Shown: positions 14,126 through 36,937 of the stretch, piece by piece | How positions within the stretch are numbered: position 1 is the stretch's first letter | How the letters are laid out: every line of letters starts with the position of its first letter | NCBI RefSeq assembly: GCF_016806065.1 | Contig: NZ_CP032406.1 | Coordinates: 446,648-510,647 of the forward strand | Reading direction: 5' to 3' | DNA length: 64,000 bases | Source of the DNA: Rhizobium rosettiformans | GTDB taxonomy: Bacteria > Pseudomonadota > Alphaproteobacteria > Rhizobiales > Rhizobiaceae | Notes under the pieces: model-generated | Databases searched by the model: none | What the model was told of the DNA's origin: nothing | What the model saw: only the letters and a program-made list of their open reading frames with translations | Made by a program: the position numbers and the translations under genes

Positions 14126-14142
14126 CAGCATCACGCATAACC

Positions 14143-15561: not shown

Positions 15562-15676
15562 GCGGTGCCGGGTCAGCTCGCCATTAACAAGACATTTAGT
15601 CTGGGCGGGGTAGTTGGCACTCGTTTACTTCGACCGACGAACGGCAGCCAGCGACGTGCTTCTTTAGAGACCGAAT

Positions 15677-20296: not shown

Positions 20297-20603
20297 GCGG
20301 AAATAATTGCCGCTCTCCCGCCATGTTGACGTCGGCCCAAAGCCAGGGCAAAAAGATGGCATCCACGGTCGCTCGCGGCAGGAAAACAGAGAAAAAATCA
20401 AAGGCAACTTTGCTAAGCCTTTGAAATTATGTGAGAATCCAGGTTCTCCAGGCGGGCGACTTTAGGTCTTTTTTCGCGAAAATTTGGCGGCTGTTTCTCA
20501 CAGAAAAAAGCGACGTCTTCTCAACAACTTGAAGAATTATGAGGGCCACTCATCAGGCCATCCGTCGTTCTGAAACGGGTCTTGCCGAATTGGCTGGGGA
20601 CCC
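20297..20603 (+). repeat. 307-bp direct repeat, copy 2
   Basis: This is the second copy of the element at 15677 and 35598, between the KaiC-like operon and the moc-like operon. It is the most diverged in the central third. It starts GCGGAAATAATTGCC and ends CTGGGGACCC. The TGTGAGAA/TTCTCACA inverted pair is conserved. Confidence 0.85.
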
Positions 20604-20731
20604 GCTGTATTCATATCTACCTTTGGGTGACGGGTGTTCTCCGCCCCGACTATATAACCAACGCGCCAGTGCAGCAGATCCGGCCCAATCTTATGAAAGA
20701 GCCAAACCTTTGAACGCTCGCCCGAGCGGAT

Positions 20732-21727
20732 TCACGCCAATCTGATGCGCCGACCGCTCCGAACGCTTTCCAGTGCCGCGTCGGCAAGTTGAAGTGCAAG
20801 CAGGCCATCTTCACCGCTAGGCGAGATCAACGCTCCGCTTTCGATCGCAGCAATAAAGCCGGCAATTTCATTGGCGTAGGCTTCGGTGTAGCGGGTCATG
20901 AAGAAGTCGTGCAGCGGCGGGCGGGTATAGCCTTCGGCAGTCGCCACCTCAATCGAGATCGGGCGCTGGTTTTCCGCGCTGGCCGAACCCAATGAGCCGT
21001 GAACTTCGATACGCTGATCGTAGCCATATGTGGCGCGTCGCGAGTTCGAAATCACAGCCTGGCGCCCGGTGACCGTCTCGAGGATTACAGTCACACTGTC
21101 GTAGTCTCCCGCAGCGCCAATAGCGGGGTCAACCAGAACAGCAGCGTGAGCGGAGACAGAAGAGATCTCTTCACCATCCAGCAGGAAGCGCGCCATGTCG
21201 AAGTCGTGGATCGTCATATCGCGGAAGATGCCGCCAGAACGGCCAATATAGTCGAGCGGCGGAGGACCGGGGTCGCGGGACGTGATGATGATCATTTCAA
21301 CCTTCCCGATACGGCCGTCGTCTATCGCCTGCTTGACCGCCATGAAATGGGGATCGAAGCGGCGGTTGAAGCCAACCATCAGCTTTGCGTCTGTCTCCTT
21401 GACGACGTCGATGCACGCTTTGACGCGAGCTATGTCCAGGTCCACTGGCTTCTCGCAAAAGATCGCTTTGCCTGCCATCGCAAACTTTTCGATCAGATCG
21501 GCGTGGGTATCGGTCGGTGTGCAGATGATCACTGCATGGATGTCGCGGGCCGCCTCGATTTCATCAATGGTGCGAACCTCTGCGCCATACTGAGCCGCGA
21601 TTGATTGGGCGGCGGCCGGAAAAGCATCGGCCACGGCGACCAGCTTCGCATCCGGATTGCTGCTCACGGCCTTGGCATGGACACGGCCGATACGGCCCGC
21701 GCCCAGAAGGGCGAAGTTTACGGTCAT
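20732..21727 (-). CDS. Gfo/Idh/MocA dehydrogenase (IolG/inositol dehydrogenase-like)
   Basis: The 331-aa NAD(P)-dependent oxidoreductase has the nucleotide-binding GAGRIGRVHAK at the N-terminus, the catalytic-lysine motif CEKPVDLD near residue 95 and the DMTIHDFDMARFL Asp/His region near 170. The sequence resembles myo-inositol 2-dehydrogenases, so oxidation of an inositol or inosamine ring hydroxyl is likely. It is the last gene of the minus-strand moc-type operon, 23 nt after the PanB-like gene, and is the best MocA counterpart here. Confidence 0.88.
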   Translation of the reverse strand: MTVNFALLGAGRIGRVHAKAVSSNPDAKLVAVADAFPAAAQSIAAQYGAEVRTIDEIEAARDIHAVIICTPTDTHADLIEKFAMAGKAIFCEKPVDLDIARVKACIDVVKETDAKLMVGFNRRFDPHFMAVKQAIDDGRIGKVEMIIITSRDPGPPPLDYIGRSGGIFRDMTIHDFDMARFLLDGEEISSVSAHAAVLVDPAIGAAGDYDSVTVILETVTGRQAVISNSRRATYGYDQRIEVHGSLGSASAENQRPISIEVATAEGYTRPPLHDFFMTRYTEAYANEIAGFIAAIESGALISPSGEDGLLALQLADAALESVRSGRRIRLA

Positions 21728-21750
21728 GGTCTTCTCTCCTATCGGCTCGA

Positions 21751-22545
21751 TCAGCCGTTGATCATGGTGTTGAAACGGGAAAGCTCGTCGGCTGGCACAC
21801 CGACATTGTGTCGATCGGCAGGATAGGCGCCGCTTTCGACGTCGTTACGAAATTCGCGGAAAGCGGTAATCCGCTCTAGCTGAAGGCGGTCGTACTCCGC
21901 CGCGAAATCGCGATAAGTCTTGGCGTGGCGGGGAACGTGGCCACGGGTTTGGCCGAGCACGTCGTCAGCGAAAAGATACTGCGCATCACAGCCAGCGCCT
22001 GCGCCCATGGAAATCATGAAGAGCGAGGTCTTTGCACTGATAATTGCGGCGACTTCTGACGGAACGACCTCGATTTCCGCTGCGAAAGCCCCCGCCTCTT
22101 CCAGAGCCTTCACTGCATGCCATATCGAAAGCGCGCTTTCTGCCGTTTTGCCGACAGCCTTGAAACCGCCGGTCCAGGTTGCCTTCGAGGGGATGAGGCC
22201 GACATGACTGCAGACCGGAATGCCTTCGTCACGCAACCTGCGAATGATGCCGAGGCTGGCTGCGCAATAGACGGCATCGCCGCCCGCTCGCATCGCCTGG
22301 AAGGCGGCTCGCAGATACTCCTCCGCTGTAATGAAATCGCCGTATTCCAAACCGGGAACGGCAAACACCGTCGGGGCCACTTCGCGAAAAGCAGGTCCGA
22401 GCAAGGCCGGGGGAACGGAGACCATTTCGATCCCGGCCTTCTCAGCAGCCTCTGCCTCTTCGAGCGTGACAACCCGCAACATGCTCAATTGCCGCTTGCC
22501 CTTGAGTGCCAGGATGTCAGCGACAGTGGGACGTTTCGATTTCAT
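21751..22545 (-). CDS. PanB-like (ketopantoate hydroxymethyltransferase family) protein with altered metal site
   Basis: The 264-aa protein has the PanB/PEP-mutase TIM-barrel pattern: PVCSHVGLIP, TGGFKAVGKT, the Glu of EIEVVPSEVA, SMGAGAGCDAQ, and GHVPRHAKTY with a terminal VESGAYP. In E. coli PanB the Mg2+ ligands are D45, D84 and E114 next to K112. Here the matching segments read MVSVPPALLG, VFAVPGLEYG and VYCAASLG, so these acidic and lysine residues appear lost, while the Glu corresponding to E181 is kept. It is unlikely to be ordinary PanB. Its operon position between the reductase and the dehydrogenase suggests a role in the same catabolic pathway, perhaps aldol/retro-aldol or C1 chemistry (inference). 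Confidence 0.75.
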   Translation of the reverse strand: MKSKRPTVADILALKGKRQLSMLRVVTLEEAEAAEKAGIEMVSVPPALLGPAFREVAPTVFAVPGLEYGDFITAEEYLRAAFQAMRAGGDAVYCAASLGIIRRLRDEGIPVCSHVGLIPSKATWTGGFKAVGKTAESALSIWHAVKALEEAGAFAAEIEVVPSEVAAIISAKTSLFMISMGAGAGCDAQYLFADDVLGQTRGHVPRHAKTYRDFAAEYDRLQLERITAFREFRNDVESGAYPADRHNVGVPADELSRFNTMING

Positions 22546-22569
22546 GGATCTTCCTCTGGCGCTTGGCGC

Positions 22570-23799
22570 CTACAAAAGGGATTTAAGCTTGGTAGCAGGG
22601 TCGGTTAGCGCTGCTGGGTCCGGATGTGCCCGCCGTGCGATCAGCATCTCAGCGAGCCGGATATCGCGCGCAACGGCGCCTCCTCGGCCAAGCCCGCTGG
22701 CTGCGAGAAGTCGTCCATCGCCATCGAGGTGAAACAGGATTTCCGCGTCATCGGACAAGGGACGAGCAACAGTCGCGACGGCGCCGTCGGCTAAGCCGGC
22801 CACCTGCAGCGTCAAGTCATATTGATCCGACCAGAACCAAGGTACGGCGTCGAAAGCTTCGGCCCTGCCGAGCATATTCACTGCCGCCGCGCTGCCCTGC
22901 TCCTGAGCGTTTCTCCAGGATTCGAGCCTAACGCGTCGGCCGCCATAAACTGCAACAGGATAGGAACAGCAGTCACCGGCGGCGAAAATGTCGGGATCGT
23001 CAGTGCGCAGATGATCATCGACTGCAATGCCGTTTTCGAGGGCAAGCCCGGCTTGTCCGGCCAGAGCGGTATTAGGCTCTGCGCCAATCCCTACCACCAG
23101 TGCATCAGCGTGGATATGCCGTCCGTCGACGAGTGTAATGATCACACGTGCATCGTCCTGAACGATGCTCTCGATCCCCACGCCACAGACAATGTTGACG
23201 CCCTCTTCCTCATGGCGAGCCTGAAGTGCCTGAGCGAGCCGTTCTGGAACACCGCGCATCAGCACACGCGGCTGCATTTCGATTAGGGTCACCATGGCTC
23301 CAAGGTGCCGGCCCATGGCTGCAAGTTCCAAGCCGATAAAGCCTCCGCCTAAGATGGCGAGGTGCTGGCCCTGCCGCATCGCGCACCGGATGGCAGTAGC
23401 CTGTTCGACAGTCCGTAAGGCGTGAATGCGTTTCCCATAGTGCAGACCGGGTAGCTTTCGTGGCGAAGCCCCTGTTGCCAGAAGCAGTCGCTCATAAGCG
23501 AGCGTTTCGCCGCTGTCTAAAAGCAGTGAATGCGCGGTGCGCTCGATGGCGCAAACGCGAGCCCCCCGGCGGTACGAGATTCCTGCTTCGGCGAACCGGG
23601 CCTCGACAACGATTGCCCGCACGATTTCGGCCGCGGCTCCTGCCTTTGACAGGGGCGGCCGCTCATACGGCAAATGGGGCTCATCTCCGATGAGGCTGAT
23701 CGTCCCCTGGTATCCTTGTTCGCGTAAGGCAAAGGCGGCGCGGACACCCGCTTCGCCCGCGCCAACAATGACCATGCCGGAGTTGGCCATGTCAGCCAA
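22570..23799 (-). CDS. FAD-dependent ferredoxin reductase (MocF-like)
   Basis: The 409-aa reductase has the FAD dinucleotide motif VIVGAGEAGVRAA at the N-terminus, a second nucleotide-binding motif AILGGGFIGLELA near residue 150 for NAD(P)H, the ATG-type motif LLATGASPR, and IFAAGDCC for FAD. It matches BphA4/rubredoxin-reductase-type enzymes that feed Rieske ferredoxins. It overlaps the ferredoxin gene by 8 nt and would complete a three-component electron chain with the Rieske protein and the desaturase-fold oxygenase, as MocF does in rhizopine catabolism. Confidence 0.88.
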   Translation of the reverse strand: MADMANSGMVIVGAGEAGVRAAFALREQGYQGTISLIGDEPHLPYERPPLSKAGAAAEIVRAIVVEARFAEAGISYRRGARVCAIERTAHSLLLDSGETLAYERLLLATGASPRKLPGLHYGKRIHALRTVEQATAIRCAMRQGQHLAILGGGFIGLELAAMGRHLGAMVTLIEMQPRVLMRGVPERLAQALQARHEEEGVNIVCGVGIESIVQDDARVIITLVDGRHIHADALVVGIGAEPNTALAGQAGLALENGIAVDDHLRTDDPDIFAAGDCCSYPVAVYGGRRVRLESWRNAQEQGSAAAVNMLGRAEAFDAVPWFWSDQYDLTLQVAGLADGAVATVARPLSDDAEILFHLDGDGRLLAASGLGRGGAVARDIRLAEMLIARRAHPDPAALTDPATKLKSLL

Positions 23800-24106
23800 C
23801 CTGGATCAACACGCGACCGCCTTCGACCTTCACAGGATAGGTCTTCAGGTTGACGCAAACGGGAGCGCCCTTGGCCTCGCCCGTTTTGTAGTTGAAGCGG
23901 CCGTTGTGTTTCGGACATTCGATGATGTCGTTCATGACAAGACCATCCGCCAGATGTACATGCTCATGCGTGCAGTGGCCGTCGGTTGCATGGTAGGTGT
24001 CCTCCGGGCTGCGATAGATGGCGAAGCTCTTGCCCTCATGGTCGAAGCGCACGACGTCCTCTTCGTCGATCTCGTCTGACTCGCAGACGTCAATCCAATT
24101 GCTCAT
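23792..24106 (-). CDS. Rieske [2Fe-2S] ferredoxin (MocE-like)
   Basis: The 104-aa soluble Rieske ferredoxin has cluster ligands in CTHEH (Cys-x-His) and CPKHNGRF (Cys-x2-His). The architecture and place in the operon match MocE, the electron carrier for the rhizopine demethylase. It overlaps the reductase gene start. A GGGTTCTCC sequence (GGAGAACC on the coding strand) before the ATG gives a plausible ribosome site. Confidence 0.9.
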   Translation of the reverse strand: MSNWIDVCESDEIDEEDVVRFDHEGKSFAIYRSPEDTYHATDGHCTHEHVHLADGLVMNDIIECPKHNGRFNYKTGEAKGAPVCVNLKTYPVKVEGGRVLIQVG

Positions 24107-24148
24107 TGGGTTCTCCTCCCCCTACTGATTGTTGAAAGCCTGCCCGTT

Positions 24149-25321
24149 TTATTCAGCCGCTGGAGCCATAGCCTCGCCATGGAAATCCTCGCGGTATGGC
24201 TTGGCGGTCGGCGGCAGTTGCCGCTTGAGGAAGTAATCCTCATTGCGGAGCTGGCGCAGGAAGGCCGGGATCATCTCGCGATAGCCATGGAGGATCGACG
24301 GGTTCGGCGCTGGCAGGTCATCCTTGATCATGGCATGCAGCTTGGGCAGCGCGTGATAGGGCACCATCGGAAACATGTGGTGTTCGACGTGGTAGTTCAT
24401 GTTCCAATAAATGAACCGACTGATCGGGTTCATGTAGACTGTCCGGCTGTTGAGCCGATGATCGATGACATTGTCCGCAAGGCCACCATGCTGCAGCAGG
24501 CCCGTCATCACGTGATGCCAGGCGCCATAGAGACGTGGCAGACCTATCAGCATGAAGGGCAGGATCGACCCCAGGTAAATGGCCAGTGCTCCCGTCGCGA
24601 CATAGATCGCCAGCCAGATGCGCGCGACATGGATGGCCTTCGGCTGTTCGCTCTCAGGAACAAACGTCTTTTCTTCAGCGCTGATCACCCCGATGGCGTT
24701 GCGAACCATGTCGATCAGAGCATGCCAGGCATCAAGCAGGCCGAAAAAGTTCAAGACCAGCCGCACAAGATCCGGCGGACGCATGACGGCGATTTCCGGG
24801 TCTCGACCAACTATTACGGTATCGGTGTGATGCCGGGTATGGCTCCAACGCCAGGTGACCGGGTTGCGCATGATCATGAAGCAGGCGATCTGGTAGACGA
24901 CGTTATTCATCCACATCGTCTTGAAGGCCGTGCCATGACCGCATTCGTGCCAGCGGCTGTCGGATGCTGACCCGTAGAGAACGCCATAGGCGAGGAAGAA
25001 CGGGATCGCCCAAAGGCTGCCCCAGAAATAAACGCCAAGGCCGCCGAAGACGATCATGGCGCCGAGCCAGATCGCAGTGTCGCGGATAGCCGGGCCATCC
25101 TCCCGCTTCATCAACTCCTTCATCTGCTTGCGGGGAACATCGGTGTGATACCACTCGGCCGCCGAAAGCCCATTGGCAACCGCAGCCTGGGCATCACGTC
25201 CCAATAGGCTGTAATCTCTCTTGCTTGCTGTGCTCGCCACGATTTCCTCCTGCCTGTCCGGTTCTGGCCGGACAACTTCGCTTGACGAATGCCAGAAGGA
25301 ATATCGCGGATTTCGATCCAC
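24149..25321 (-). CDS. Membrane di-iron oxygenase of the fatty-acid-desaturase superfamily (MocD-like)
   Basis: The 390-aa protein carries three histidine boxes (HECGHGT near residue 125, HTRHHTD near 161, HVEHHMF near 311) and four or so hydrophobic segments, the hallmark of integral-membrane di-iron desaturases and hydroxylases. In Rhizobium and Sinorhizobium mocDEF, the MocD-type oxygenase with ferredoxin and reductase is implicated in demethylating 3-O-methyl-scyllo-inosamine. Co-transcription with a Rieske ferredoxin and reductase supports the same role here. The N-terminal ~28 residues may be an over-extension; a later start near MKELMK is less likely. The exact substrate is not proven by sequence. 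Confidence 0.85.
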   Translation of the reverse strand: MDRNPRYSFWHSSSEVVRPEPDRQEEIVASTASKRDYSLLGRDAQAAVANGLSAAEWYHTDVPRKQMKELMKREDGPAIRDTAIWLGAMIVFGGLGVYFWGSLWAIPFFLAYGVLYGSASDSRWHECGHGTAFKTMWMNNVVYQIACFMIMRNPVTWRWSHTRHHTDTVIVGRDPEIAVMRPPDLVRLVLNFFGLLDAWHALIDMVRNAIGVISAEEKTFVPESEQPKAIHVARIWLAIYVATGALAIYLGSILPFMLIGLPRLYGAWHHVMTGLLQHGGLADNVIDHRLNSRTVYMNPISRFIYWNMNYHVEHHMFPMVPYHALPKLHAMIKDDLPAPNPSILHGYREMIPAFLRQLRNEDYFLKRQLPPTAKPYREDFHGEAMAPAAE

Positions 25322-25340
25322 TCAATGGGGGCTTGATATA

Positions 25341-25382
25341 TTCTATCATTTCACATCATATAGATACCGAAGAATGATAGAA
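25341..25382. promoter_or_regulatory. Divergent moc promoter with inverted repeat operator
   Basis: TTCTATCATT (25341-25350) and AATGATAGAA (25373-25382) form a perfect 10-bp inverted repeat with a 22-bp spacer in the 82-bp region between the mocD-like and LacI genes. A second GAATGATA overlaps the right arm. The half-site resembles that of the palindrome at 26470, so both may be targets of the adjacent LacI regulator. Confidence 0.6.
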
Positions 25383-25403
25383 TGATATCAGAAAGGAACG
25401 GGT

Positions 25404-26435
25404 ATGGCATCGCGTCCCACTATTGCCGACCTCGCGAAAGCGGCAGACGTGAGCGTTGCGACTGTCGACCGTGTGTTGAACGGTCGACACAAGGTGCGGG
25501 AAGACACCGCAAAACGAGTGTACGACGCGGCGAACGAGATTGGTTTCCATGCCGTCGGCCTGCTTAGGCAGCGCGTATTCGAGGGGCTGCCTCAATACAA
25601 GCTGGGCTTCGTGCTGCAGAAGCCGGATCATCATTTCTATCAGGCGTTCGCGCGCGAGATTGAAATCGCCGTTCAGAATCATCCCGGTATACGAGGCATA
25701 GCGCAGATCGACTTTTGTACATCGCAGACGCCTTCAGAACTGGCAGACAAGCTCCGCGAGATTGGGGGCCGGAACCAGGCTGTCGCGATGACCGCGCCTG
25801 ACTATCCCGCACTGTCTGTCGTGGTTGAGGAAATGAAGGCCAAGGGGATCCCGGTGTTCTCGCTGCTATCCGACTTCGCCCCAGGGATCCGGGAAGGTTA
25901 TGTCGGCCTGAACAACCGGAAAGCAGGGAGAACGGCAGCCTGGATGATTGCCAAGACCGCGAAAAAGTCAGGTAAAGTCGCGGTTTTCGTAGGCAGTCAT
26001 CGGTTTCACGGGCACGAGCTGCGTGAGATCGGCTTTCGCTCCTACTTTCGCGAACATGCTCCTGACTTCGAGGTTCTCGATACCCTAGTAAACCTCGAGA
26101 CCGTACAGATTACGCATGAAGCAACGCTCGATCTGCTGCTGCGCCACCCCGATCTCGTTGGCTTCTACGTTGCGGGCGGCGGCATGGAAGGCGCGATCTC
26201 CGCCATCAGGGAAGAAAAGCTCGGCGGAAAGCACATTGTTGTGGTCAACGAACTGACGCCGATCTCCCGCGCCGCGCTCGCAGATGAGATTGTAACCATG
26301 GCGATTGCGACCCCACTAGCCAATCTGTGCCGTGAGCTGGTTCAGTTGATGGTGGAGGCTGTGGATAGCGGCCCTGCTACAGCACCAGGGCAAACGTTCC
26401 TGCCTATGGAGCTTCACGTGCCCGAGAATATCTAG
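25404..26435 (+). CDS. LacI-family regulator of the moc-type island
   Basis: The 343-aa regulator has the LacI HTH (PTIADLAKAADVSVATVDRVLNG) and a sugar-binding-protein-like effector domain (KLGFVLQKPDHHFYQAFAREIE, DLVGFYVAGGGMEG). It lies between the minus-strand demethylase operon and the plus-strand mocC/transport genes and probably controls both through the ATGAWAGA-type half-sites. Known moc loci use a MocR (GntR-type) regulator, so a LacI regulator here is a variation. Confidence 0.9.
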   Translation: MASRPTIADLAKAADVSVATVDRVLNGRHKVREDTAKRVYDAANEIGFHAVGLLRQRVFEGLPQYKLGFVLQKPDHHFYQAFAREIEIAVQNHPGIRGIAQIDFCTSQTPSELADKLREIGGRNQAVAMTAPDYPALSVVVEEMKAKGIPVFSLLSDFAPGIREGYVGLNNRKAGRTAAWMIAKTAKKSGKVAVFVGSHRFHGHELREIGFRSYFREHAPDFEVLDTLVNLETVQITHEATLDLLLRHPDLVGFYVAGGGMEGAISAIREEKLGGKHIVVVNELTPISRAALADEIVTMAIATPLANLCRELVQLMVEAVDSGPATAPGQTFLPMELHVPENI

Positions 26436-26469
26436 AAAAGACATATTTCCATCATGTCATTTCGCAAAT

Positions 26470-26487
26470 TCTTTCATAAATGAAAGA
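26470..26487. promoter_or_regulatory. Perfect palindrome upstream of the mocC-like gene (candidate LacI operator)
   Basis: TCTTTCAT-AA-ATGAAAGA is an 18-bp perfect palindrome. Its half-site (ATGAAAGA) matches the ATGATAGA arms of the divergent promoter at seven of eight positions. It is about 110 bp before the ATG at 26595. Confidence 0.55.
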
Positions 26488-26594
26488 TATCACCTCCATT
26501 TCTGCTTTGACGAACGTCATGAAACCTGATGATTTCGACGTCAGCGGGCCCCGAGGAGGAACAAGGGGGCCGCCAGACACTTCGGGAGAATTTC

Positions 26595-27407
26595 ATGGCT
26601 GCGCCCACCTTCGCGCTCAACCACATGGTTGCGCCACAGATGCCGCTTGGCGCTTTTTTCAAGCTCGGCAAAACCCTTGGCATCAACCAGTTTGAGATCC
26701 GCAACGATCTCTCAGGCAATGCCATTTTGGACGGGACATCGCCGTCTCAAGTACGAGAGCTCGCCGCAGCAGAGGGTGCGGAAATCATTTCCATCAACGC
26801 ACTTCAGCGTTTCAACGAATGGACACCGGCTCGTGAGGAAGAAGCACGAAGCCTTGCGACCTACGCTGCGGCATGCGGAGCGAAGGCGCTGGTTCTGGTC
26901 CCGGTCAACGATGGCTCGGGCAAGCTAGAAGGTGAGCGTCAAGGCAACCTGCGCATGGCCCTGAAAGGGTTGAAGCCGATCCTTGAACAAGCTGGCATCA
27001 TCGGCCTCGTCGAGCCTCTGGGCTTCCAGATCTGTTCCTTGCGCTCCAAGAAGGAAGCGGTCGAAGCCATCCATGCCATCAGCGGTTCGGACCGCTTCCG
27101 GCTGGTTCATGACACATTCCATCACGTTCTCGCTGGCGAGCCGGACGTATTTCCGGCGATGACCGGCCTCGTCCACATCTCAGGGGTCGATGACGGCCAG
27201 GTCAGCGTCGACGACATGCGTGATCCGCATCGGGTCATGGTGACCGCTGGGGATCGCCTTGCCAATGTGGCGCAAATTCGGGCCCTGCTCGCTCAAGGCT
27301 ATGCAGGCCCCTTCTCTTTCGAGCCTTTCTCGCCCGCTGTTCATGCCACGGCCGATGTGGTCGGCCTTATCAAAGGCAGCATGGATTTCATTCGCGAGAA
27401 GCTCTGA
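26595..27407 (+). CDS. Sugar phosphate isomerase/epimerase-family TIM barrel (MocC/IolI-like)
   Basis: The 270-aa AP-endonuclease-2-like TIM barrel contains FEIRNDLSGN, VLVPVNDGSG, GLVEPLGFQ (metal-ligand Glu), LVHDTFHHVLAG (Asp/His ligands), VHISGVDD and FSFEPFSP. Members isomerise keto-inositols or related sugars; MocC belongs to this family. The ATG at 26595 is preferred, with GGGAGA 5-10 nt upstream. It is the first gene of the plus-strand transport/catabolic unit. Confidence 0.85.
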   Translation: MAAPTFALNHMVAPQMPLGAFFKLGKTLGINQFEIRNDLSGNAILDGTSPSQVRELAAAEGAEIISINALQRFNEWTPAREEEARSLATYAAACGAKALVLVPVNDGSGKLEGERQGNLRMALKGLKPILEQAGIIGLVEPLGFQICSLRSKKEAVEAIHAISGSDRFRLVHDTFHHVLAGEPDVFPAMTGLVHISGVDDGQVSVDDMRDPHRVMVTAGDRLANVAQIRALLAQGYAGPFSFEPFSPAVHATADVVGLIKGSMDFIREKL

Positions 27408-27523
27408 CCAGATCCCCACACGCCCAGGAGGAGTTGGGCGTGTGGGCGAATTGCCTCCTGGGGAGGAGGCGTGCCGGCTTTCAGGGGTGTTGCCGGGCAC
27501 CGCACAACATGTGGAGGATTACA

Positions 27524-28447
27524 ATGAAGAAAATCGTGGCAGGAGCCCTTCTGGGCGTGCTGATGGCATCCAGCGCAATGGCAGGCAATATCGGCGTCTC
27601 GATGGCAAACTCGGACACCTTTCTGACCGTGCTGCGCAAGGGCATCGAGAAGGCGGCCGGCGATGCCAGCCAGCCTGTTCAGATCGAAATTGCCGATGAC
27701 GACGTCCAGAAGCAGCTTTCGCAGATCCAGAACTTCATCGCGTCCAAGGTCGACGCAATCATCGTCAATGCCGTCGACACGTCTGCGACCGCTCCGATGA
27801 CCAAGCTTGCCAACGATGCCGGCATCCCGATCGTTTACGTCAACCGCATGCCGTCCGACGTCGATGCATTGGGTCCCAAGGGTGCCTTCGTGGCATCAGA
27901 CGAGGTCGAGTCCGGTACGCTGCAGACCAAGGAAGTCTGCCGCATCCTCGGTGGTAAGGGCGACATCCTCGTCATGGTCGGAGACCTTGCCAACCAGGCC
28001 GCGGTTCAGCGCACGAAGGATATTCACGACGTCATCGCGACCCCTGACTGCTCTGGAATGAAGATCCTCGACGAACAGACCGCCGTCTGGGATCCGGTCA
28101 AGGCTCAAGACCTCATGACCAACTGGATCGCTGCAGGCCACAAGCCCGCTGCTGTCATCGCCAACAATGACAACATGGCAATCGGCGCCATCAATGCCAT
28201 GAAGGCCGCTGGCTGGGGCATGGATGAGGTCGTGGTCGCAGGCATTGATGCAACCCAGGAAGCGCTCGCTTACATGAAGGCAGGTGATCTCGATGTCACT
28301 GTCTTCCAGGACGCTTTCGGCCAGGGTGCCGGTGCGGTCGATGCGGCGATCAAGCTCGCCAAGGGCGATAAAGTCGACGCCAAGGTCTGGATCCCATTCC
28401 AGCTCGTAACCCCTGAAAACATGGATCAGTTCGTCACCAAGAACTGA
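27524..28447 (+). CDS. Periplasmic sugar/inositol-type binding protein (MocB/IbpA-like)
   Basis: The 307-aa type-I periplasmic binding protein has a Sec signal peptide (about residues 1-21, cleavage after SAMA). The mature part has the ribose-binding-family pattern, including NSDTFLTVLRKGIE, DAIIVNAVDTSA, AAVIANNDNMAIGA and VVVAGIDATQEAL. The GGAGG before ATG 27524 (7-nt spacing) supports the start. MocB is such a binding protein. Three-gene order with an RbsA-type ATPase and a permease follows. Confidence 0.9.
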   Translation: MKKIVAGALLGVLMASSAMAGNIGVSMANSDTFLTVLRKGIEKAAGDASQPVQIEIADDDVQKQLSQIQNFIASKVDAIIVNAVDTSATAPMTKLANDAGIPIVYVNRMPSDVDALGPKGAFVASDEVESGTLQTKEVCRILGGKGDILVMVGDLANQAAVQRTKDIHDVIATPDCSGMKILDEQTAVWDPVKAQDLMTNWIAAGHKPAAVIANNDNMAIGAINAMKAAGWGMDEVVVAGIDATQEALAYMKAGDLDVTVFQDAFGQGAGAVDAAIKLAKGDKVDAKVWIPFQLVTPENMDQFVTKN

Positions 28448-28460
28448 TGCGAGGCTAAAT

Positions 28461-28489
28461 AGACTCGCCGTCAGCTAGGCGGCGGGTCT
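28461..28489. other. Intercistronic hairpin between binding-protein and ATPase genes
   Basis: AGACTCGCCG pairs with CGGCGGGTCT (one G-U) around a 9-nt loop, 14 nt after the binding-protein stop. Such hairpins commonly protect the upstream binding-protein message and give it higher expression than the transporter genes. Confidence 0.45.
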
Positions 28490-28509
28490 GTCATTCGGGA
28501 GGAGCTGAC

Positions 28510-30063
28510 ATGGCACGATCACAGGCATTGAGCCCACAAACCATGCAGGCCGTGCGGACCAGCGGGGCTGTCCCGCAAAGTGAGTTCCTGCTTGAGGTCT
28601 CTGACGTGCGGAAAGAATTTCCGGGCGTCGTTGCTCTCGACGATGTGCAGTTGAAGCTCCGCCGCGGTACGGTGCATGCCCTGATGGGCGAAAATGGCGC
28701 TGGCAAGTCGACCTTGATGAAAATCCTTGCCGGGATCTACACACCCGATAGCGGCAGCTTCAAGCTGCGCGGCGTCGATATCCGTCTCAAGAACCCACTC
28801 GATGCCTTGCAGAACGGAATTGCGATGATCCATCAGGAGCTAAACCTGATGGCCCCCATGACGGTCTCGGAAAACATCTGGATCGGACGAGAACCTATCG
28901 GGCGTTTCGGCTTCGTTGACCATGCCGAAATGAACCGCCGCACGGCAGCACTCTTCGATCGCCTCGGCATCGACATCGATCCGGAAATCAAGGTGGGCAA
29001 GCTCAGCGTCGCCAGCCGCCAGATGGTCGAAATCGCCAAGGCCGTCTCGTTCGATTCCGACGTTCTCATTATGGACGAGCCGACATCTGCCTTGACCGAG
29101 AAGGAGGTCAACCACCTTTTCCGGATCATCCGATCGCTCCGTGAGGATGGAAAGGGCATCATCTACATCACTCACAAGATGAACGAGTTGTTCGAGATCG
29201 CCGATGAGTTTTCAGTGTTCCGCGATGGCAAATACATCGCGACCTGCAACTCAGCCGATGTAACACGCGACGACATCATCCGCATGATGGTGGGACGCGA
29301 GATCACCCAGATGTTTCCAAAGGAGCCGGCCAAGATCGGCGAGGTCGTCCTTTCTGCGAAAGGCCTCACTCTGAACGGCGTTTTCCGCGATGTGTCCTTC
29401 GATCTGCGGGCGGGTGAGATCTTGGGTTTTGCAGGTCTCGTCGGCTCCGGCCGCTCGAATGTCGCTGAAACGATCTTCGGTGTGACACCTGCCGATGCAG
29501 GCACCATCGAACTCTTTGGCAAGCAGGTGCAAGTCACCTCGCCCTCGGTCGCCATGAGCCATGGCATGGCATTCCTTACAGAGGATCGTAAGGAAACTGG
29601 CTGCTTCCTTCTTCTCAACATTCAGGAGAACGCCCAGATGGCGGTGCTCCAGCAGCGATATGTGAATTTCGGCTTCGTACAGCAGCAGGAACTAACCAAG
29701 GCTGCATCGGATATGGCCAACAGGCTTCGGGTGCGCACGCCTGACATGAACGAGCCGATCATCAACCTGTCCGGCGGCAATCAGCAGAAGGTGCTGATCT
29801 GTCGGTGGCTGATGACCAACCCAAAAATTCTGATCCTCGATGAACCTACCCGCGGCATCGATGTCGGCGCAAAAGCCGAAATTCACCGCCTGATCTCGCA
29901 ACTCGCAGGCCAGGGGGTCGCAATCATCATGATCTCATCGGAAATGCCCGAAGTGCTTGGGATGAGCGACAGGATTGTTGTGCTGCATGAGGGCCGGGTC
30001 ACGGGGATCCTGGACCGCGCGGAAGCCGACCAAGTCAAAATCATGGAGCTGGCGTCGCGTTGA
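28510..30063 (+). CDS. Sugar ABC transporter ATPase with two nucleotide-binding domains (RbsA/MglA-like)
   Basis: The 517-aa protein has two fused ABC domains. The first has Walker [13 protein letters not shown] and Walker [16 protein letters not shown]. The second has a degenerate Walker A ([12 protein letters not shown]), signature LSGGNQQK and Walker [16 protein letters not shown], as usual in CUT2 ATPases. An AGGAGC-type ribosome site precedes the ATG. Confidence 0.93.
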
Positions 30064-30083
30064 CGACCAGCCGGGAGGAAATC

Positions 30084-31166
30084 ATGTCAGATGCCACCAA
30101 CGAACTCGGCGAGACGTCGAAGACGGGCCTGAAAAAGGTACGCCGCTTACCGCCAGAATTCTCCATTCTGGCCGTTTTGATCGGGATCGCACTCGTCTTC
30201 GAAATCATCGGCTGGTACGTCGTCGGAGAAAGCTTTCTAGGCAACAAGCAGCGCCTGTCGATCATCGTATTGCAGGTTGCCGTCACGGGCATTATTGCCG
30301 TCGGCGTTACTCAGGTCATCATCACGGGCGGCATCGATTTGTCGTCAGGCTCGATGGTGGGCTTTATCGCCATGGTCGTTGCGAGTTTTGCCCAGACATC
30401 ACTCAATGCGCGTGCCGTGTTCCTGCAACCGGAATATGCTGCCTTCGGCTTGAACTGGTTCATCGACTCCAGTCCACTGTGGCCGATTCTGGCTGGCATA
30501 TTGCTTGGAGCCCTACTCGGCTACATCAATGGACTTATCATCGCCAAGACCGGAATTCCGCCCTTCATCGCTACTCTTGGTATGATGGTGTCGGCACGCG
30601 GTCTTGCGAAATGGTACACCGAAGGTCAGCCAGTCGCCCTCCTCAACGAGAACTTTACCTGGCTTGGTCAGAGCTTCGATCTCTGGGGTTTTCCAGTCCC
30701 GCGCACTGTGATCGTCTTCTTCATCGTCGCCACGATCTGTCATGTCGTCCTTTGCTACACGCGTTACGGCAAATTCACCTATGCGATCGGTGCAAATCCG
30801 CAGGCCGCACGTGTGTCCGGTATCGACATTGGTAAGCACCTGATCAAGGTCTATGCGGTTGCGGGCCTGCTCTCTGGCGTTGCAGGCGTGATGCTCGCGG
30901 CCCGTGCGCAATCGGGCCAGCCCAACATGGGGGTCGCCTTCGAACTCGACGCGATTGCCGCAGCCGTAATCGGAGGCACGTCACTTGCCGGTGGCGTTGG
31001 TCGCATTACCGGGACCGTAATCGGTACCATCATTCTTGGCGTAGTGACCTCCGGGTTCACCTTCCTCAAAGTTGGCGCCTACTATCAAGAGATCGTCAAG
31101 GGCGCGATTATCGTGGCCGCTGTGGTCATTGATGTACATCGGCAGAAGAAAAAATCCCGCGCCTGA
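30084..31166 (+). CDS. CUT2-family sugar ABC permease (RbsC/IatP-like)
   Basis: The 360-aa membrane protein has about eight to ten hydrophobic segments and the family motifs GVTQVIITGGIDLSSGSMVG, GLIIAKTGIPPFIATLG and AIGANPQAARVSGI. The start at 30084 (MSDATN) has GGGAGGA 6 nt upstream; the frame overlaps the ATPase stop with a TTG at 30060, which is less likely. It is the single permease for the MocB-like protein. Confidence 0.9.
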   Translation: MSDATNELGETSKTGLKKVRRLPPEFSILAVLIGIALVFEIIGWYVVGESFLGNKQRLSIIVLQVAVTGIIAVGVTQVIITGGIDLSSGSMVGFIAMVVASFAQTSLNARAVFLQPEYAAFGLNWFIDSSPLWPILAGILLGALLGYINGLIIAKTGIPPFIATLGMMVSARGLAKWYTEGQPVALLNENFTWLGQSFDLWGFPVPRTVIVFFIVATICHVVLCYTRYGKFTYAIGANPQAARVSGIDIGKHLIKVYAVAGLLSGVAGVMLAARAQSGQPNMGVAFELDAIAAAVIGGTSLAGGVGRITGTVIGTIILGVVTSGFTFLKVGAYYQEIVKGAIIVAAVVIDVHRQKKKSRA

Positions 31167-31183
31167 ACCTCCCGGGCGATCTG

Positions 31184-31216
31184 GGGCGATGCGGGACACC
31201 AATATCCGCATCGCCC
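31184..31216. terminator. Strong hairpin between the transporter operon and purU
   Basis: An 11-bp perfect stem (GGGCGATGCGG with CCGCATCGCCC) and an 11-nt loop are followed by ATTTCTC. It lies 18 nt after the permease stop and 43 nt before the purU start, so it is either a terminator or an attenuator for the purU-folD unit. Confidence 0.6.
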
Positions 31217-31258
31217 ATTTCTCAACCTACTTCCCGAAATCTGGAGCACTCGACATCT

Positions 31259-32143
31259 ATGGCGCCGTTTGTATTGACCGTATCCTGCCAGTCCACTCGC
31301 GGCATTGTAGCGGCGATCTCGGGTTATCTGGCCGAGCAGGGCTGCAACATCGTCGATAGTTCCCAGTTCGACGATCTGCATACCGGACAGTTCTTCATGC
31401 GCGTCTCCTTCATCTCGGAGGAAGGTGCCAACGAAGCCAAGCTCGAAAAGGGCTTCGTACCGGTGGCCGAGAAATTCGGCATGAACTGGAACCTCTATGA
31501 CGCTGCCCAGCGCATGAAGGTGCTGCTGATGGTGTCGCGTTTCGGCCACTGCCTGAACGACCTGCTCTATCGCTGGAAGATCGGTGCGCTCCCGATCGAC
31601 ATCGTCGGCGTGGTCTCGAACCACTTCGACTATCAGAAGGTCGTCGTGAACCACGACATCCCCTTCCACCACATCAAGGTGACCAAGGAGAACAAGCCGG
31701 AAGCCGAAGCCCGGATCATGGATCTGGTCGAGCAGACGGGAACCGAGCTCATCGTCCTCGCCCGCTACATGCAGGTTCTCTCCGACGACATGTGCCGCAA
31801 GATGTCGGGCAAGATCATCAACATTCACCACTCCTTCCTGCCAAGCTTCAAGGGTGCCAACCCCTACAAGCAGGCCTTCGAACGCGGCGTGAAGCTGATC
31901 GGTGCCACGGCCCATTACGTCACCGCCGATCTCGATGAAGGTCCGATCATCGAGCAGGATGTCGCCCGCATCACGCATGCGCAGTCGGCGGAAGACTATG
32001 TCTCGATCGGCCGCGATGTCGAAAGCCAGGTGCTGGCGCGCGCGATCCACGCGCACATCCACCACCGGACCTTCATCAACGGCAACCGCACGGTCGTCTT
32101 CCCGGCAAGCCCGGGCTCCTATGCCTCCGAGCGCATGGGGTAA
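31259..32143 (+). CDS. purU: Formyltetrahydrofolate deformylase
   Basis: The 294-aa PurU has an N-terminal ACT domain (LTVSCQSTRGIVAAISGYLA) and a C-terminal formyltransferase-fold catalytic domain with LIVLARYMQVLS, IINIHHSFLPSF (catalytic His) and HYVTADLDEGPIIEQD (catalytic Asp). It hydrolyses 10-formyl-THF to formate and THF. folD follows after 3 nt. In this island it may dispose of methyl-derived one-carbon units from the O-demethylase (inference). Confidence 0.93.
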   Translation: MAPFVLTVSCQSTRGIVAAISGYLAEQGCNIVDSSQFDDLHTGQFFMRVSFISEEGANEAKLEKGFVPVAEKFGMNWNLYDAAQRMKVLLMVSRFGHCLNDLLYRWKIGALPIDIVGVVSNHFDYQKVVVNHDIPFHHIKVTKENKPEAEARIMDLVEQTGTELIVLARYMQVLSDDMCRKMSGKIINIHHSFLPSFKGANPYKQAFERGVKLIGATAHYVTADLDEGPIIEQDVARITHAQSAEDYVSIGRDVESQVLARAIHAHIHHRTFINGNRTVVFPASPGSYASERMG

Positions 32144-32146
32144 TCC

Positions 32147-33046
32147 ATGACTGTTGTCATCGACGGAAAGGCAGCCGCCGCTTCGGTCATCGAAGCGGTA
32201 ACCTCAGCGGCAACGACGCTCGAAAGTTCCGGCCACCGCAAGCCAGGGCTCGCGGTCGTGATCGTCGGAGATGATCCGGCAAGCCATGCGTATGTTGGCG
32301 CCAAGAGCCGCATGGCCAAGCAGTGCGGTTTCAACTCCATCCAGCACACGTTGCCTAAGGAGACCTCGCAGGAGGAGCTGATGGCGCTGGTTGCCTCGCT
32401 CAATGCCGATCCTCAGATCGACGGCATTCTGGTCCAGCTACCACTGCCGAAACATCTCGACAGCGAGCCCGTCATCCAGTCGATCCTGCCGGAAAAGGAT
32501 GTCGACGGACTGCATATCGTCAATGCCGGCAAGCTCGCGACCGGCGATCTGAAGACCGGGCTTCTTTCCTGTACGCCGGCTGGCGCCATGATCCTGGTGC
32601 GCCAGATCCACGGCAAGGATCTCTCGGGCCTCAACGCCCTCGTCATCGGCCGCTCGAACCTCTTCGGCAAGCCGATGGCGCAGCTTCTGCTGAATGCCAA
32701 CGCAACGGTCACCATTGGCCATTCGAAGAGCCGCGATCTGCCGGAACTCGCCCGTCAGGCCGATATTCTAGTGGCGGCCGTCGGACGTGCCGAAATGGTC
32801 AAGGCCGACTGGCTGAAGCCGGGCGCAACCGTCATCGATGTCGGCATCAACCGCGTCGCAGCTCCCGAAAAGGGTGAGGGAAAGTCCAAGCTGGTGGGCG
32901 ACGTCGCCTTTGCCGAATGCAAGCCGATCGCCAAGGCCATCTCTCCGGTTCCCGGCGGTGTCGGGCCAATGACGATCGCCATGCTGATGGCCAATACCGT
33001 GATTGCTGCCCATCGCCGGGCGGGGGTTGCTGCGCCGAGTTTCTGA
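32147..33046 (+). CDS. folD: Methylenetetrahydrofolate dehydrogenase/cyclohydrolase
   Basis: The 299-aa bifunctional FolD has the signature segments [13 protein letters not shown] (catalytic Lys), [19 protein letters not shown] and [15 protein letters not shown], plus the NADP motif [11 protein letters not shown]. It interconverts methylene-THF, methenyl-THF and 10-formyl-THF. It is coupled to purU, so methylene-THF can be taken to formyl-THF and then to formate. Rhizobiaceae normally have a housekeeping folD elsewhere, so this may be an accessory copy. Confidence 0.94.
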
Positions 33047-33084
33047 TAGCGTACAACTGAAACCTTAGCCTCAAGGAGGGCGCG

Positions 33085-33966
33085 ATGGGACTGGGTGTGG
33101 GGCTGATCGGTTCTGGCTATATGGGCAAATGCCATGCCCTGGCCTGGACCTCCGTCGCTACGGTTTTTCCGGATGTGGAGAGGCCAAGGCTTGTCGCACT
33201 CGCTGATGCGACGCCGGAGCTCGCGCAACAGCAGGCGCAGGCTTTCGGTTTCGGCAGAGGCACGGGAGACTGGCACGATCTCCTGGCCGATCCAGCGATC
33301 CACGTGATCTCGATCGCAGCCCCCAACCAGTTCCACGCGGAAATGGCTGTAGCGGCTCTGGAGGCTGGCAAACATGTCTGGTGCGAAAAGCCGATGGCCA
33401 CATCCCTGGAGGATGCCACGCGCATGCGGGATGCGGCGAGTCGTTCCGGCCGAACGGCAATCCTCGGCTACAACTACATTCAAAATCCCATGATCCGGCT
33501 GGCCCGCGCGATCATTGACGAAGGCAGGATCGGAACGGTCAGCCATATCCGGCTGGAGATGGACGAGGATTACATGGCGGACCCCACCGAGCGCTTCTAC
33601 TGGAAGAGCGAAAGGGCATCAGGCTATGGCGCGCTCGATGACTTCGCGGTTCACCCGCTCTCGCTGCTGTCTGTTCTCCATGGTCGGATCACCTCGGTCG
33701 TTGCGGATATGGCGAAACCCTATGCCGAACGTCCAGCGGCCGACGGCAAGACACGCTCTGTCGAGAACCATGATATCGCCCAGGCACTTTTCCAAACAGA
33801 AGGTGGCGCATCGGGCGTCCTGATGGTCAATCGTTCTGCATGGGGCAGGAAGGGTCGAATTGCACTGCAGATCTTTGGCTCGAAGGGATCAATTCTCTTC
33901 GACCAAGAGCGCATGAATGAGTTGCAGATCTACTCGACAGACGACCCAATCGGCCTTCAGGGTTAG
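33085..33966 (+). pseudogene. Gfo/Idh dehydrogenase gene, 5' part, split by IS3-family insertion
   Basis: The frame encodes residues 1-293 of a Gfo/Idh oxidoreductase: GSGYMGKCHALAW NAD motif, CEKPMATS catalytic-lysine motif and GALDDFAVHPLSLL. It starts at ATG 33085 after AGGAGG and is placed 38 nt after folD. After GLQG it meets a TAG formed by the first base pairs of the IS element. The remaining ~83 codons are found at 35251-35501. Joining the two parts gives a protein of about 375 aa, the normal family length. Confidence 0.9.
33764..33964 (+). repeat. Segment duplicated at 15128-15328
   Basis: About 200 bp of the Gfo/Idh gene, from AGAACCATG to CAGGGTT, is nearly identical to 15128-15328 (two differences seen). 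The similarity resumes at 35251 beyond the IS element. Confidence 0.9.
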
Positions 33967-34048
33967 AGCTGGCTCGGGAAATCTGCACAGCTAGGATAAG
34001 TGGAATTTCTGCCTGACTTCGGCTTAGATGCCGGGAACAGGAGATACC

Positions 34049-34360
34049 ATGACGAGACGACCGCGCCGGAACCACAGCCCGGCTTTCAAGGCGAAGGTGG
34101 CACTTGCCGCCATCCGAGGTGAGCAGACGCTGGTGGAGTTGTCCCAGCAGTTCGATGTGCACGCCAACCAGATCAAGCAATGGAAAGACCAGCTCCTTGA
34201 GGGGGCGACGGGTGTGTTCGGCGATGAAACGAAGGCGGAGCCGACGGGTCCGACCATCGATGTCAAAACGCTGCACGCGAAAATCGGCGAACTGACACTG
34301 GAGAACGATTTTTTATCCGGTGCGCTCGGCAAGGCGGGATTGCTGGGCGGAAAGAAATGA
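34049..34360 (+). CDS. IS3-family transposase OrfA
   Basis: The 103-aa protein has a helix-turn-helix of the transposase_8 type (HSPAFKAKVALAAIRGEQTL, ELSQQFDVHANQIKQWK) and a leucine-rich C-terminal helix (LHAKIGELTLENDFL) for multimerisation. The ATG at 34049 has AGGAG 5 nt before it. Its stop overlaps the orfB start (ATGA). Confidence 0.93.
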   Translation: MTRRPRRNHSPAFKAKVALAAIRGEQTLVELSQQFDVHANQIKQWKDQLLEGATGVFGDETKAEPTGPTIDVKTLHAKIGELTLENDFLSGALGKAGLLGGKK

Positions 34361-35187
34361 TCGACCGCGAGCACAAGCTATCCGTCGTGCGCCAGGCGAA
34401 GCTTCTCGGCTTCAGCCGTGGCAGCGTCTACTATCTGCCTCGTCCGGTGTCTGACGGCGATCTGGCCCTGATGCGGCGGATCGATGAATTGCATCTCGAC
34501 TACCCCTTTGCCGGAAGTCGGATGTTGCAAGGGCTCTTGAGAGGAGAAGGTCTGGAGACCGGGCGGCTGCACGTCGCCACGCTGATGAAGAAGATGGGCA
34601 TCGAGGCGATCTACCGTCGCCCGAACACCTCCAAACCAGCGCCAGGTCACAAAATCTATCCCTACCTCTTGCGCAAGTTGGCCGTCACCAGACCCAATCA
34701 AGTCTGGGCCATGGACATCAGCTACATCCCTATGGCGAGAGGATTTGTCTATCTCTGCGCCGTCGTGGACTGGTTCAGCCGGAAGGTTTTGTCGTGGCGG
34801 CTGTCGATCACGATGGAAGCGGACTTCTGCATCGAAGCGGTCGAGGAGGCGCTCGCCCGCTATGGCAAGCCGGAAATATTCAATACCGACCAGGGATCGC
34901 AGTTCACCTCCATCGACTTCACCGCCGTGCTGAAGAAGGCGGAGATCGCCATCTCAATGGATGGCAGGGGTGCGTGGCGGGACAACGTCTTCGTCGAGCG
35001 GCTCTGGCGGTCGATCAAATACGAGGAGGTCTACCTCCACGCCTACAAGACCGTATCTGAGGCCCGCCTGGGCATTGGCCGCTATCTGACCTTCTACAAT
35101 AGCCGACGCCCACATTCATCCCTTGACCGGCAGACGCCGGATCAGGCCTACTTCAACGCGCTGGCACCAATGATGGTGGCGGCATAA
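34357..35187 (+). CDS. IS3-family transposase OrfB (DDE integrase)
   Basis: The 276-aa protein has the HTH_21 region (LHLDYPFAGSRMLQGLL) and rve integrase core with the DDE residues in WAMDISYIP, FNTDQGSQFTS and a Glu in DNVFVERLWRSIKYEEVY. The C-terminal YNSRRPHSSLDRQTPDQAYF is typical of the family. It overlaps orfA by 4 nt, so it may be made by coupled re-initiation or by frameshifting. Confidence 0.94.
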   Translation: MIDREHKLSVVRQAKLLGFSRGSVYYLPRPVSDGDLALMRRIDELHLDYPFAGSRMLQGLLRGEGLETGRLHVATLMKKMGIEAIYRRPNTSKPAPGHKIYPYLLRKLAVTRPNQVWAMDISYIPMARGFVYLCAVVDWFSRKVLSWRLSITMEADFCIEAVEEALARYGKPEIFNTDQGSQFTSIDFTAVLKKAEIAISMDGRGAWRDNVFVERLWRSIKYEEVYLHAYKTVSEARLGIGRYLTFYNSRRPHSSLDRQTPDQAYFNALAPMMVAA

Positions 35188-35250
35188 TCGAGGCGGAATC
35201 CACTTAGCAAGACGCCCGAAACTGTTCAGACAAACCGAGCCACCTCTGTT

Positions 35251-35501
35251 ATCGCACATTGCTTGCCGCACCTCCCCATACACCTTATCGCCAGTTCATT
35301 CCCGCACCGGGTCATGGGTTGGGATTCAACGAACTGAAAGTGATCGAGTGCAATGAGCTTCTGCAGGCGATCTCCGGCGAACACGATGCCTATGTCATCG
35401 ACTTCGAACGTGGCCTCGAAATAGAGCGCACAGTGCATGCGGCGGCACGATCGGCAGTATCGGGCACGTGGGTCAAGATCGAGCACGTTGACTTGCTGTG
35501 A
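35251..35501 (+). pseudogene. Gfo/Idh dehydrogenase gene, 3' part after the IS insertion
   Basis: This encodes the last ~83 residues (from the YRTLLAAPPHTPY segment to HVDLL) of the dehydrogenase interrupted at 33964. It has no start of its own. The homologous uninterrupted reading is at about 15329-15561, where the final ten residues differ. Confidence 0.9.
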
Positions 35502-35597
35502 TCCCTGAGACGCTCAACGGCGAACTCTTCGCTAGTAAAGACGCTGTGTGTCGCGGCGTTTGAGACCGAGGTTATAACCTCTTACGATACATTCCGA

Positions 35598-35904
35598 GCG
35601 GAAATAATTGCCGCTCTCCCGCCATGTTGACGTCGGCCCAAAGCCAGGGCACAAAGATGGCATCCACGATCGCTCGCGACAGGAAAACAGAGCAAAATCA
35701 AAGGCTATTTTTCTAAACCTTTGAAATCATGTGAGAATCCAGGCTCTCCAGGCAGGTAATTTTCGTCTGCTTTCCGCCGGCAATCAGCGTCCGTTTCTCA
35801 CAGAAAAAAGTGACGCCTTCTGAACTACTTGAGCAATCCCGGCTGCTGTTGTTCTGGCCATCCGTCGTGCTTGAAACGGACCTCGCCAAACTGGCCGGGG
35901 ACCC
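35598..35904 (+). repeat. 307-bp direct repeat, copy 3
   Basis: This is the third copy of the element at 15677 and 20297, about 97 bp after the Gfo/Idh stop. Like copy 1, it follows a Gfo/Idh 3' end, although the spacers themselves are not alike. It starts GCGGAAATAATTGCC and ends CCGGGGACCC. Confidence 0.85.
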
Positions 35905-36097
35905 GCAAGCACTGTCATTTATCGGCGATGATGGTGTTTCGCACGGCGGAAGCGGAAATTCAAAACATCGGGCGCTGCTGCCCGAGTTAGGCACATCGCG
36001 GACATCGGGGACCTTGACTGTAGAACCCAGATACAGCCGTAGATTGGAGGTGTTCCAAGCTTCCAACCCTTCGACGTTGCGGCACAGGATTTGAGAG
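35905..36097. other. Intergenic sequence between repeat 3 and the dsbG-like gene
   Basis: I see no convincing gene or hairpin here. A short open frame crossing the repeat lacks a ribosome site. Confidence 0.4.
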
Positions 36098-36892: not shown

Positions 36893-36937
36893 GATGCGAT
36901 CCTTTGAATGTCTGATTTCTTTTGGTGGGTACCGAGA

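Follow-up and report, generated by a model that had tools for sequence, protein, structure and literature searches.

Legume nodules and exudates contain methylated inositols in abundance, and the literature we searched has little to say on what rhizobia do with the methyl groups. A gene island in a 64,000-nucleotide stretch of Rhizobium rosettiformans DNA raises the question directly: why does a Moc-type di-iron oxygenase stand together with its own pair of folate genes, purU and folD? The stretch analysed (the window, G000:C2:446648-510647) is the right-hand terminal part of a 511-kb contig; the genome measures 5.14 Mb. We favour, with a probability of roughly 0.6, the answer that the island is a LacI-controlled catabolic locus of the FixV type for an O-methylated cyclitol, combining demethylation by MocDEF with oxidation of the one-carbon unit by FolD and PurU. 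It would then probably remove methyl groups from plant inositols and oxidise the released carbon by folate enzymes of its own.

Gene content and second copies of purU and folD

Two divergent, closely packed gene runs occupy 20732-33966 and are separated by an 82-bp gap; within both runs the intergenic gaps range from -8 to +93 bp. Away from the 82-bp gap, the left run reads mocD, mocE, mocF, panB-like and iolG. The right run reads lacI, mocC-like, the genes for the substrate-binding protein (SBP), ATPase and permease of an ATP-binding cassette (ABC) transporter, purU, folD and a Gfo/Idh dehydrogenase. In the following list THF stands for tetrahydrofolate and FAD for flavin adenine dinucleotide.

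20732..21727, minus strand: iolG, inositol 2-dehydrogenase (TIGR04380, 408.5 bits, cut-off 355, equivalog)
21751..22545, minus strand: PanB-like TIM-barrel protein without the PanB metal-site residues (Pfam 137.3 bits; under both NCBIfam panB cut-offs)
22570..23799, minus strand: mocF, FAD ferredoxin reductase
23792..24106, minus strand: mocE, Rieske 2Fe-2S ferredoxin (TIGR02377, 173.8 bits, cut-off 136)
24149..25321, minus strand: mocD, membrane di-iron oxygenase of the FA_desaturase family
25404..26435, plus strand: LacI/GalR-family regulator in the FixV-type position, divergent from mocD
26529..27407, plus strand: MocC-like, Msi119-type TIM-barrel protein (AP_endonuc_2)
27434..28447, plus strand: sugar ABC transporter SBP (ribose/galactose-type transporter)
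28510..30063, plus strand: sugar ABC transporter ATPase
30060..31166, plus strand: sugar ABC transporter permease
31259..32143, plus strand: purU, formyl-THF deformylase, the genome's second copy (344.7 bits, cut-off 286)
32147..33046, plus strand: folD, methylene-THF dehydrogenase/cyclohydrolase, the genome's second copy (484.2 bits, cut-off 396)
33085..33966, plus strand: N-terminal part of a levoglucosan-dehydrogenase-like Gfo/Idh protein (229.8 of 650 bits; residues 2-294 of the 377 of the P. desertarenae protein)

All components that a preliminary description of this DNA had named here (MocD-like di-iron oxygenase, Rieske ferredoxin, reductase, dehydrogenase, MocC-like protein, transporter, PurU, FolD and PanB-like protein) were confirmed. 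The histidine boxes of MocD are strongly conserved among the best 80 of its 586 homologues, with H.RHH and H.EHH in 80/80 and H..GH in 76/80. Searches of the PDB returned no match to MocD at E≤0.01 and only two entries for the MocC-like protein, neither with a named function. The same genome also carries iolD.

A chromosomal purU at C1:723962 shares 97% protein and 91% DNA identity with the island gene, and a chromosomal folD at C1:2155802 shares 95% and 86%. The chromosomal copies are unlinked, 1.4 Mb apart, and their scanned neighbours are unrelated to demethylation; the island genes are separated by 3 bp. The presence of chromosomal copies rules out a housekeeping role for the island pair. 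According to the preliminary description, the link to demethylation would be coincidental if these were the genome's only copies and mocDEF loci elsewhere never carried them. Because second copies exist and purU also stands beside other mocDEF genes (see below), this objection fails on both counts.

Recurrence beside mocD and the PanB-like family

We compared the best 80 of 586 homologous mocD loci in the genome collection with the island proteins; by flank size, 72/80 loci were eligible for the panB-like gene and 62/80 for purU and folD. Among eligible loci mocE followed mocD in 79/79 and mocF in 78/78, lacI was nearby in 77/78 and the panB-like gene was present in 58/72. A co-occurrence check like the one proposed in the preliminary description found purU within 10 kb of mocD in 18/62 eligible loci (22/80 overall) and folD less often, in 4/62 (5/80 overall). 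All 22 linked purU genes lie on the same strand and in two fixed slots, directly after the panB-like gene (17/22, gap -16 to 180 bp) or directly after the ABC permease gene (5/22, gap 96 to 118 bp). Four of the 17 loci using the panB-like slot (L070, L082, L092 and L097) carry a distant kind of purU (50-55% identity). By our rough estimate, from 25 genomes of 4.7-7.8 Mb with 1-5 purU-like matches, chance would place purU this close to mocD in ∼1% of cases.

In a purU tree of 57 proteins (74 rows before identical ones were merged, with hits of ∼240 residues or fewer left out) the context label changed 13 times, compared with a shuffled mean of 20.8, and at least 8 changes were forced by well-supported branches. 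Two island purU genes group as a pair with a purU from elsewhere in their own genome (Root1334, 100/100; AFS060926, 100/99), and that of AFS068226 falls into a 100/100 clade with another purU of the same genome. This pattern fits repeated recruitment of purU.

The pair was also surveyed in 60 same-genus genomes drawn from a larger group, with figures given for the matches listed. The complete permease-purU-folD-dehydrogenase junction was present in 11/60. Within the genus the pair also occurs in other operons. Four (L231-L234) of the six places listed for the pair alone were inspected; three have a recognisable context, and the one in G475 does not. On an R. rhizophilum contig it follows genes for an FA_hydroxylase-type protein, MocE (64%), a TIM barrel, a PanB-like protein (52%), IolG (52%) and MocF (42%). 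In G456 it adjoins an 844-residue DAO/GCV_T protein with electron-transfer flavoprotein genes, resembling dimethylglycine dehydrogenase (DMGDH). In G463 it lies behind the Gln-synt_C/Glu_synthase genes of a gmaS/glutamate-synthase-like operon, which we take to resemble the N-methylglutamate route. Gene content, spacing, second copies and recurrence are all directly observed.

Rhizopine-type loci provide a further comparison. On pSymA of S. meliloti HM006 (L101), MocR (763.9 bits, cut-off 650), a MocA-like dehydrogenase, an SBP and mocDEF are followed by panB-like and purU genes, and mocDEF of the S. kummerowiae moc locus is likewise followed by both. The pSymB mocDEF locus of S. meliloti (L102) has the panB-like gene and lacks purU. 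By DNA match, 883 plasmid records show some similarity to the MocR-mocDEF-panB-like-purU block, 14 of them containing 80% of it or more, and among the 60 matches listed these 14 are the only ones that include MocR. They come from Sinorhizobium, Phyllobacterium and Rhizobium, several being near-identical strains, and include plasmids of Phyllobacterium zundukense, Rhizobium lentis, R. leguminosarum and R. indicum. At the 16 MocR loci found in 394 Rhizobiaceae genomes, some of which end at contig ends, mocDEF, the panB-like gene and purU are all absent (16/16). The panB-like gene and purU therefore accompany the oxygenase and not the inosamine regulator.

The PanB-like protein scores 131 bits, against 345 bits for a true PanB elsewhere in the same genome. 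Residues were counted in 67 members from mocD and MocR loci and in 34 more (30 distant loci, L231 and three plasmid loci). In the alignment, the equivalents of E. coli PanB D45, D84, K112 and E114, which we take to be the metal and keto-acid site, are absent from 101/101 members (0/67 and 0/34); at D45 the alignment has a gap, and in some members an aspartate lies within two columns of D84. PanB itself requires a metal (PMC4814558). The panB-like gene is thus present as the preliminary description had it, but with these residues missing it is doubtful that its product is a folate enzyme of the usual kind. The fold is shared with ketopantoate hydroxymethyltransferase PanB (EC 2.1.2.11): a structure model with a predicted local distance difference test score (pLDDT) of 84 has PanB as its first fold neighbour, followed by class II aldolases and relatives of phosphoenolpyruvate (PEP) mutase and isocitrate lyase.

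Thirty distant PanB-like loci were chosen for diversity from 60 such places among 67 listed, some of them ending at contig ends. In 24/30 a di-iron oxygenase, of either of two superfamilies, or a Rieske ferredoxin is nearby. Seven comparison loci (L271-L277) belong to a second clade of PanB type; those inspected (4/7 and L240) show C in the D84 column and Q at E114. The 0/7 that they gave is therefore a contrast between two PanB-type clades, not with true PanB. This second clade (L271-L277, L240) carries the motifs VGDSLAM and VKPQGG and keeps D45 and K112, the equivalents of D84 and E114 being lost. At L239 (Bradyrhizobium guangxiense p53363) a PanB-like gene accompanies a sterol-desaturase-type oxygenase, a Rieske ferredoxin and a reductase beside GH88 and AraD1 genes, a context that hints at demethylation of an O-methyl uronic acid.

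We propose that the PanB-like protein may handle the one-carbon unit. A more specific and tentative idea, to which we give well under even odds, is that these proteins are a new family of metal-free PanB descendants acting immediately after ferredoxin-fed di-iron O-demethylases (FA_desaturase/FA_hydroxylase). They might take the hydroxymethyl group of the hemiacetal, or formaldehyde, to THF or discharge it with no free formaldehyde, purU and folD being repeatedly recruited add-ons. If this were true, the classical rhizopine operon would be longer than mocDEF. The function of this PanB-derived family can be tested directly, owing to its position beside di-iron oxygenases of two different kinds.

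Proposed pathway, rival explanations and island borders

We infer the substrate, the reaction of MocD in this island, the one-carbon flow and the part played by the PanB-like protein as follows. The ABC transporter would import an O-methylated cyclitol, and electrons would pass from reduced nicotinamide adenine dinucleotide (NADH) via MocF and MocE to MocD. MocD would hydroxylate the O-methyl group, and the resulting hemiacetal would give the free ring and a one-carbon unit at the formaldehyde level. IolG and the MocC-like protein could then route the ring to the chromosomal iol pathway. The one-carbon unit would join THF as methylene-THF, FolD would convert it to formyl-THF, and PurU would free formate and regenerate THF; formaldehyde release and flow through folate had also been suggested in the preliminary description. 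Such a repeatedly assembled set of oxygenase and one-carbon oxidation genes offers a concrete pathway for testing.

Our best guess for the substrate is an O-methyl-inositol, for example pinitol or ononitol. Mimosa root exudate, in which pinitol (145 uM) reaches the highest concentration of any component, induces mocDEF of R. mesoamericanum 1.5-2.1-fold together with a mocB-like transporter (PMC5789663). A MocR biosensor has been tested with pinitol and ononitol, and activation was reported for inosamines (PMC6668481). O-methyl-inositols such as pinitol are likelier than rhizopine as the substrate of this island.

Several observations weigh against the proposed pathway. The lack of purU near 44/62 and of folD near 58/62 eligible mocD loci means that the folate module is optional. 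In the 30 distant PanB-like loci, purU or folD lay within 7.5 kb in none (at L260 purU is just beyond) and a MocF-type reductase was found in only five. The bootstrap of the purU tree is not fully settled, and its label 'other' does not equal housekeeping, as it includes purU genes of demethylation operons such as L118 (in the FA_hydroxylase cluster described above). Gene conversion between purU copies could imitate repeated recruitment; the two different slots are not explained by it. The Mimosa study did not separate pinitol from the other components, and its authors interpret the induction as rhizopine catabolism (PMC5789663). In addition, the last dehydrogenase gene of the island is split by an insertion sequence (IS), which could make the pathway less effective in this strain.

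One rival is catabolism of rhizopine (3-O-methyl-scyllo-inosamine) proper, as by mocCABRDEF of S. meliloti. That locus and the island share MocDEF, a dehydrogenase of the IolG/MocA type and a TIM-barrel protein; the island SBP is also 59% identical to the one adjoining MocR in S. meliloti HM006. However, this genome yields no MocR match at E≤1e-180, a threshold at which 16/394 Rhizobiaceae genomes match, and the regulator is of the LacI family instead. On these two grounds the island was rejected as the rhizopine moc locus proper, and we consider rhizopine catabolism very unlikely here. What stands of the preliminary description, which had assigned the island to rhizopine catabolism, is a Moc-type oxygenase with its own purU-folD. 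The island SBP reaches 39.1 of 420 bits with the rhizopine-binding model NF052284, though that model also misses the MocR-locus SBP of L101 at 1e-20. Proteins above its cut-off occur in 7/394 genomes at loci without mocDEF, so they do not help to define rhizopine demethylation. A different possibility is that MocD is not an O-demethylase and instead hydroxylates a cyclitol or sugar elsewhere, after which the PanB-like protein would cleave off a one-carbon or longer fragment by a retro-aldol reaction, served by FolD and PurU. The aldolases and lyase relatives among its fold neighbours past PanB, and its association with di-iron oxygenases of two superfamilies even without purU, would suit such a reaction. 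We regard it as rather unlikely, given that catabolism of methylated rhizopine requires mocDEF (PMC10107442, PMC3538637) and that MocR loci without mocDEF also lack panB-like and purU. That purU and folD are merely passengers of a recent duplication, unconnected to the demethylase, would agree with their high DNA identity to the chromosomal copies, but it hardly accounts for two fixed slots on the same strand with tight gaps, several origins in the tree and several demethylation contexts, and we give it almost no weight.

The remaining alternative concerns the ends of the island, where the following features were found (R, a dispersed repeat, is given without strand).

15115..15576, plus strand: orphan copy of the dehydrogenase C-terminus (residues 224-377)
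15677..16000: R, copy 1
20297..20605: R, copy 2, adjoining iolG (in P. desertarenae too)
33966..35248 (ends approximate), plus strand: IS3-family insertion sequence inside the dehydrogenase gene (transposase open reading frames 34028-34360 and 34357-35187)
35226..35489, plus strand: C-terminal remnant of the IS3-split dehydrogenase
35598..35924: R, copy 3

The preliminary description took the direct repeats as the borders of a segment that moves as one unit. The repeats are real and lie at both ends (∼310-325 bp, the other two window copies being 82% and 88% identical to copy 3), and P. desertarenae keeps the gene block amid different flanks, as recombination between repeats would allow. The two loci are collinear across 20297-33965 at 88.8% DNA identity, R beside iolG included. 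R occurs at eight places in the genome, three in the window and five within ∼40 kb of the chromosome (C1:2.293-2.332 Mb), and is therefore not specific to this island. It was found in 13/23 other same-genus genomes searched (three of those in the search being below 90% complete) and in 0/16 genomes of other genera. No match to R was present at the non-iolG end of the P. desertarenae island within a 41-kb stretch, and plasmid records searched with the two flanks showed no empty site, the best query coverage at one place being ≤48%. As R is dispersed genus-wide and the P. desertarenae island is single-sided, the copies were rejected as borders of a mobile unit; movement as one unit between them is not supported, and mobility of this kind is improbable.

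R is genus-restricted, clustered and intergenic, lying in several places immediately behind a gene's 3' end. Copies 1 and 3 form the tail of a longer duplication containing the dehydrogenase 3' end. This duplicate is 99% identical to the left of the IS3 insertion point (33764-33965 versus 15128-15329) and 88% identical to its right (35248-35456 versus 15326-15534), a mosaic that suggests recombination or gene conversion around the IS. A 1289-bp stretch including the IS3 element has a 100% identical copy at C1:1958917-1960205 on the chromosome, and the P. desertarenae counterpart of the split dehydrogenase is intact, with 377 residues.

Elsewhere in the window, at 9979-15127, genes for one protein with a DyP_N domain, one with a catalase domain and one esterase-like protein form a run next to an AraC/GAF regulator. 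At 16446-19983 a KaiC-like ATPase with two domains precedes a PAS histidine kinase/response regulator, and plasmids of Sinorhizobium, Agrobacterium and Neorhizobium match the two as a unit. The genes at 36098-41750, for a thioredoxin-like protein, an L,D-transpeptidase, a sensor kinase and DsbD, form a module that is also present on Rhizobium, Agrobacterium and Neorhizobium plasmids. No tRNA was found in the window, nor any known RNA family at gathering score.

Comparison with known systems

MocDEF reportedly takes the methyl group off rhizopine, a finding ascribed to Bahar in 1998. The S. meliloti-type rhizopine moc locus (mocBA, mocR, mocDEF) shares mocDEF with the island, but it has MocR, a GntR-type (GntR/aminotransferase) regulator, in place of LacI, and its transporter gene order differs; folD was not found in the rhizopine-type loci L101 and L103. 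In the literature within reach, which excludes subscription papers such as Bahar 1998, we found no link of panB-like genes or purU to rhizopine or mocDEF. Our results suggest that the mocDEF operon described in 1998 is extended by two genes.

The FixV-type clusters, in which a LacI-family gene adjoins mocDEF in rhizobia and an inositol derivative has been suggested as the signal, resemble the island in having lacI divergent from mocD and, in some species, an Msi119-type epimerase following (PMC3538637). The text of that paper makes no mention of panB, purU, hydroxymethyl or formyltetrahydrofolate.

PurU has been described in catabolic one-carbon oxidation with FolD for chloromethane (PMC3621897), in the sarcosine oxidase cluster glyA-soxBDAG-purU (PMC3691474) and in nicotine catabolism as purU-mabO-folD (PMC3891541), and the same FolD-PurU logic appears in TRIS catabolism (PMC10848231). 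In these modules purU, mostly with folD, lies beside a step that demethylates or releases a hydroxymethyl group, and the one-carbon unit ends as formate. Their feeding enzymes (CmuB, sarcosine oxidase, MABO, mSHMT) load the unit on THF, whereas the island lacks a known THF-loading enzyme and would be fed by a ferredoxin-dependent di-iron oxygenase. As in the catabolic FolD-PurU modules, extra copies of purU and folD, distinct from the others in the genome, stand beside a demethylase-type oxygenase.

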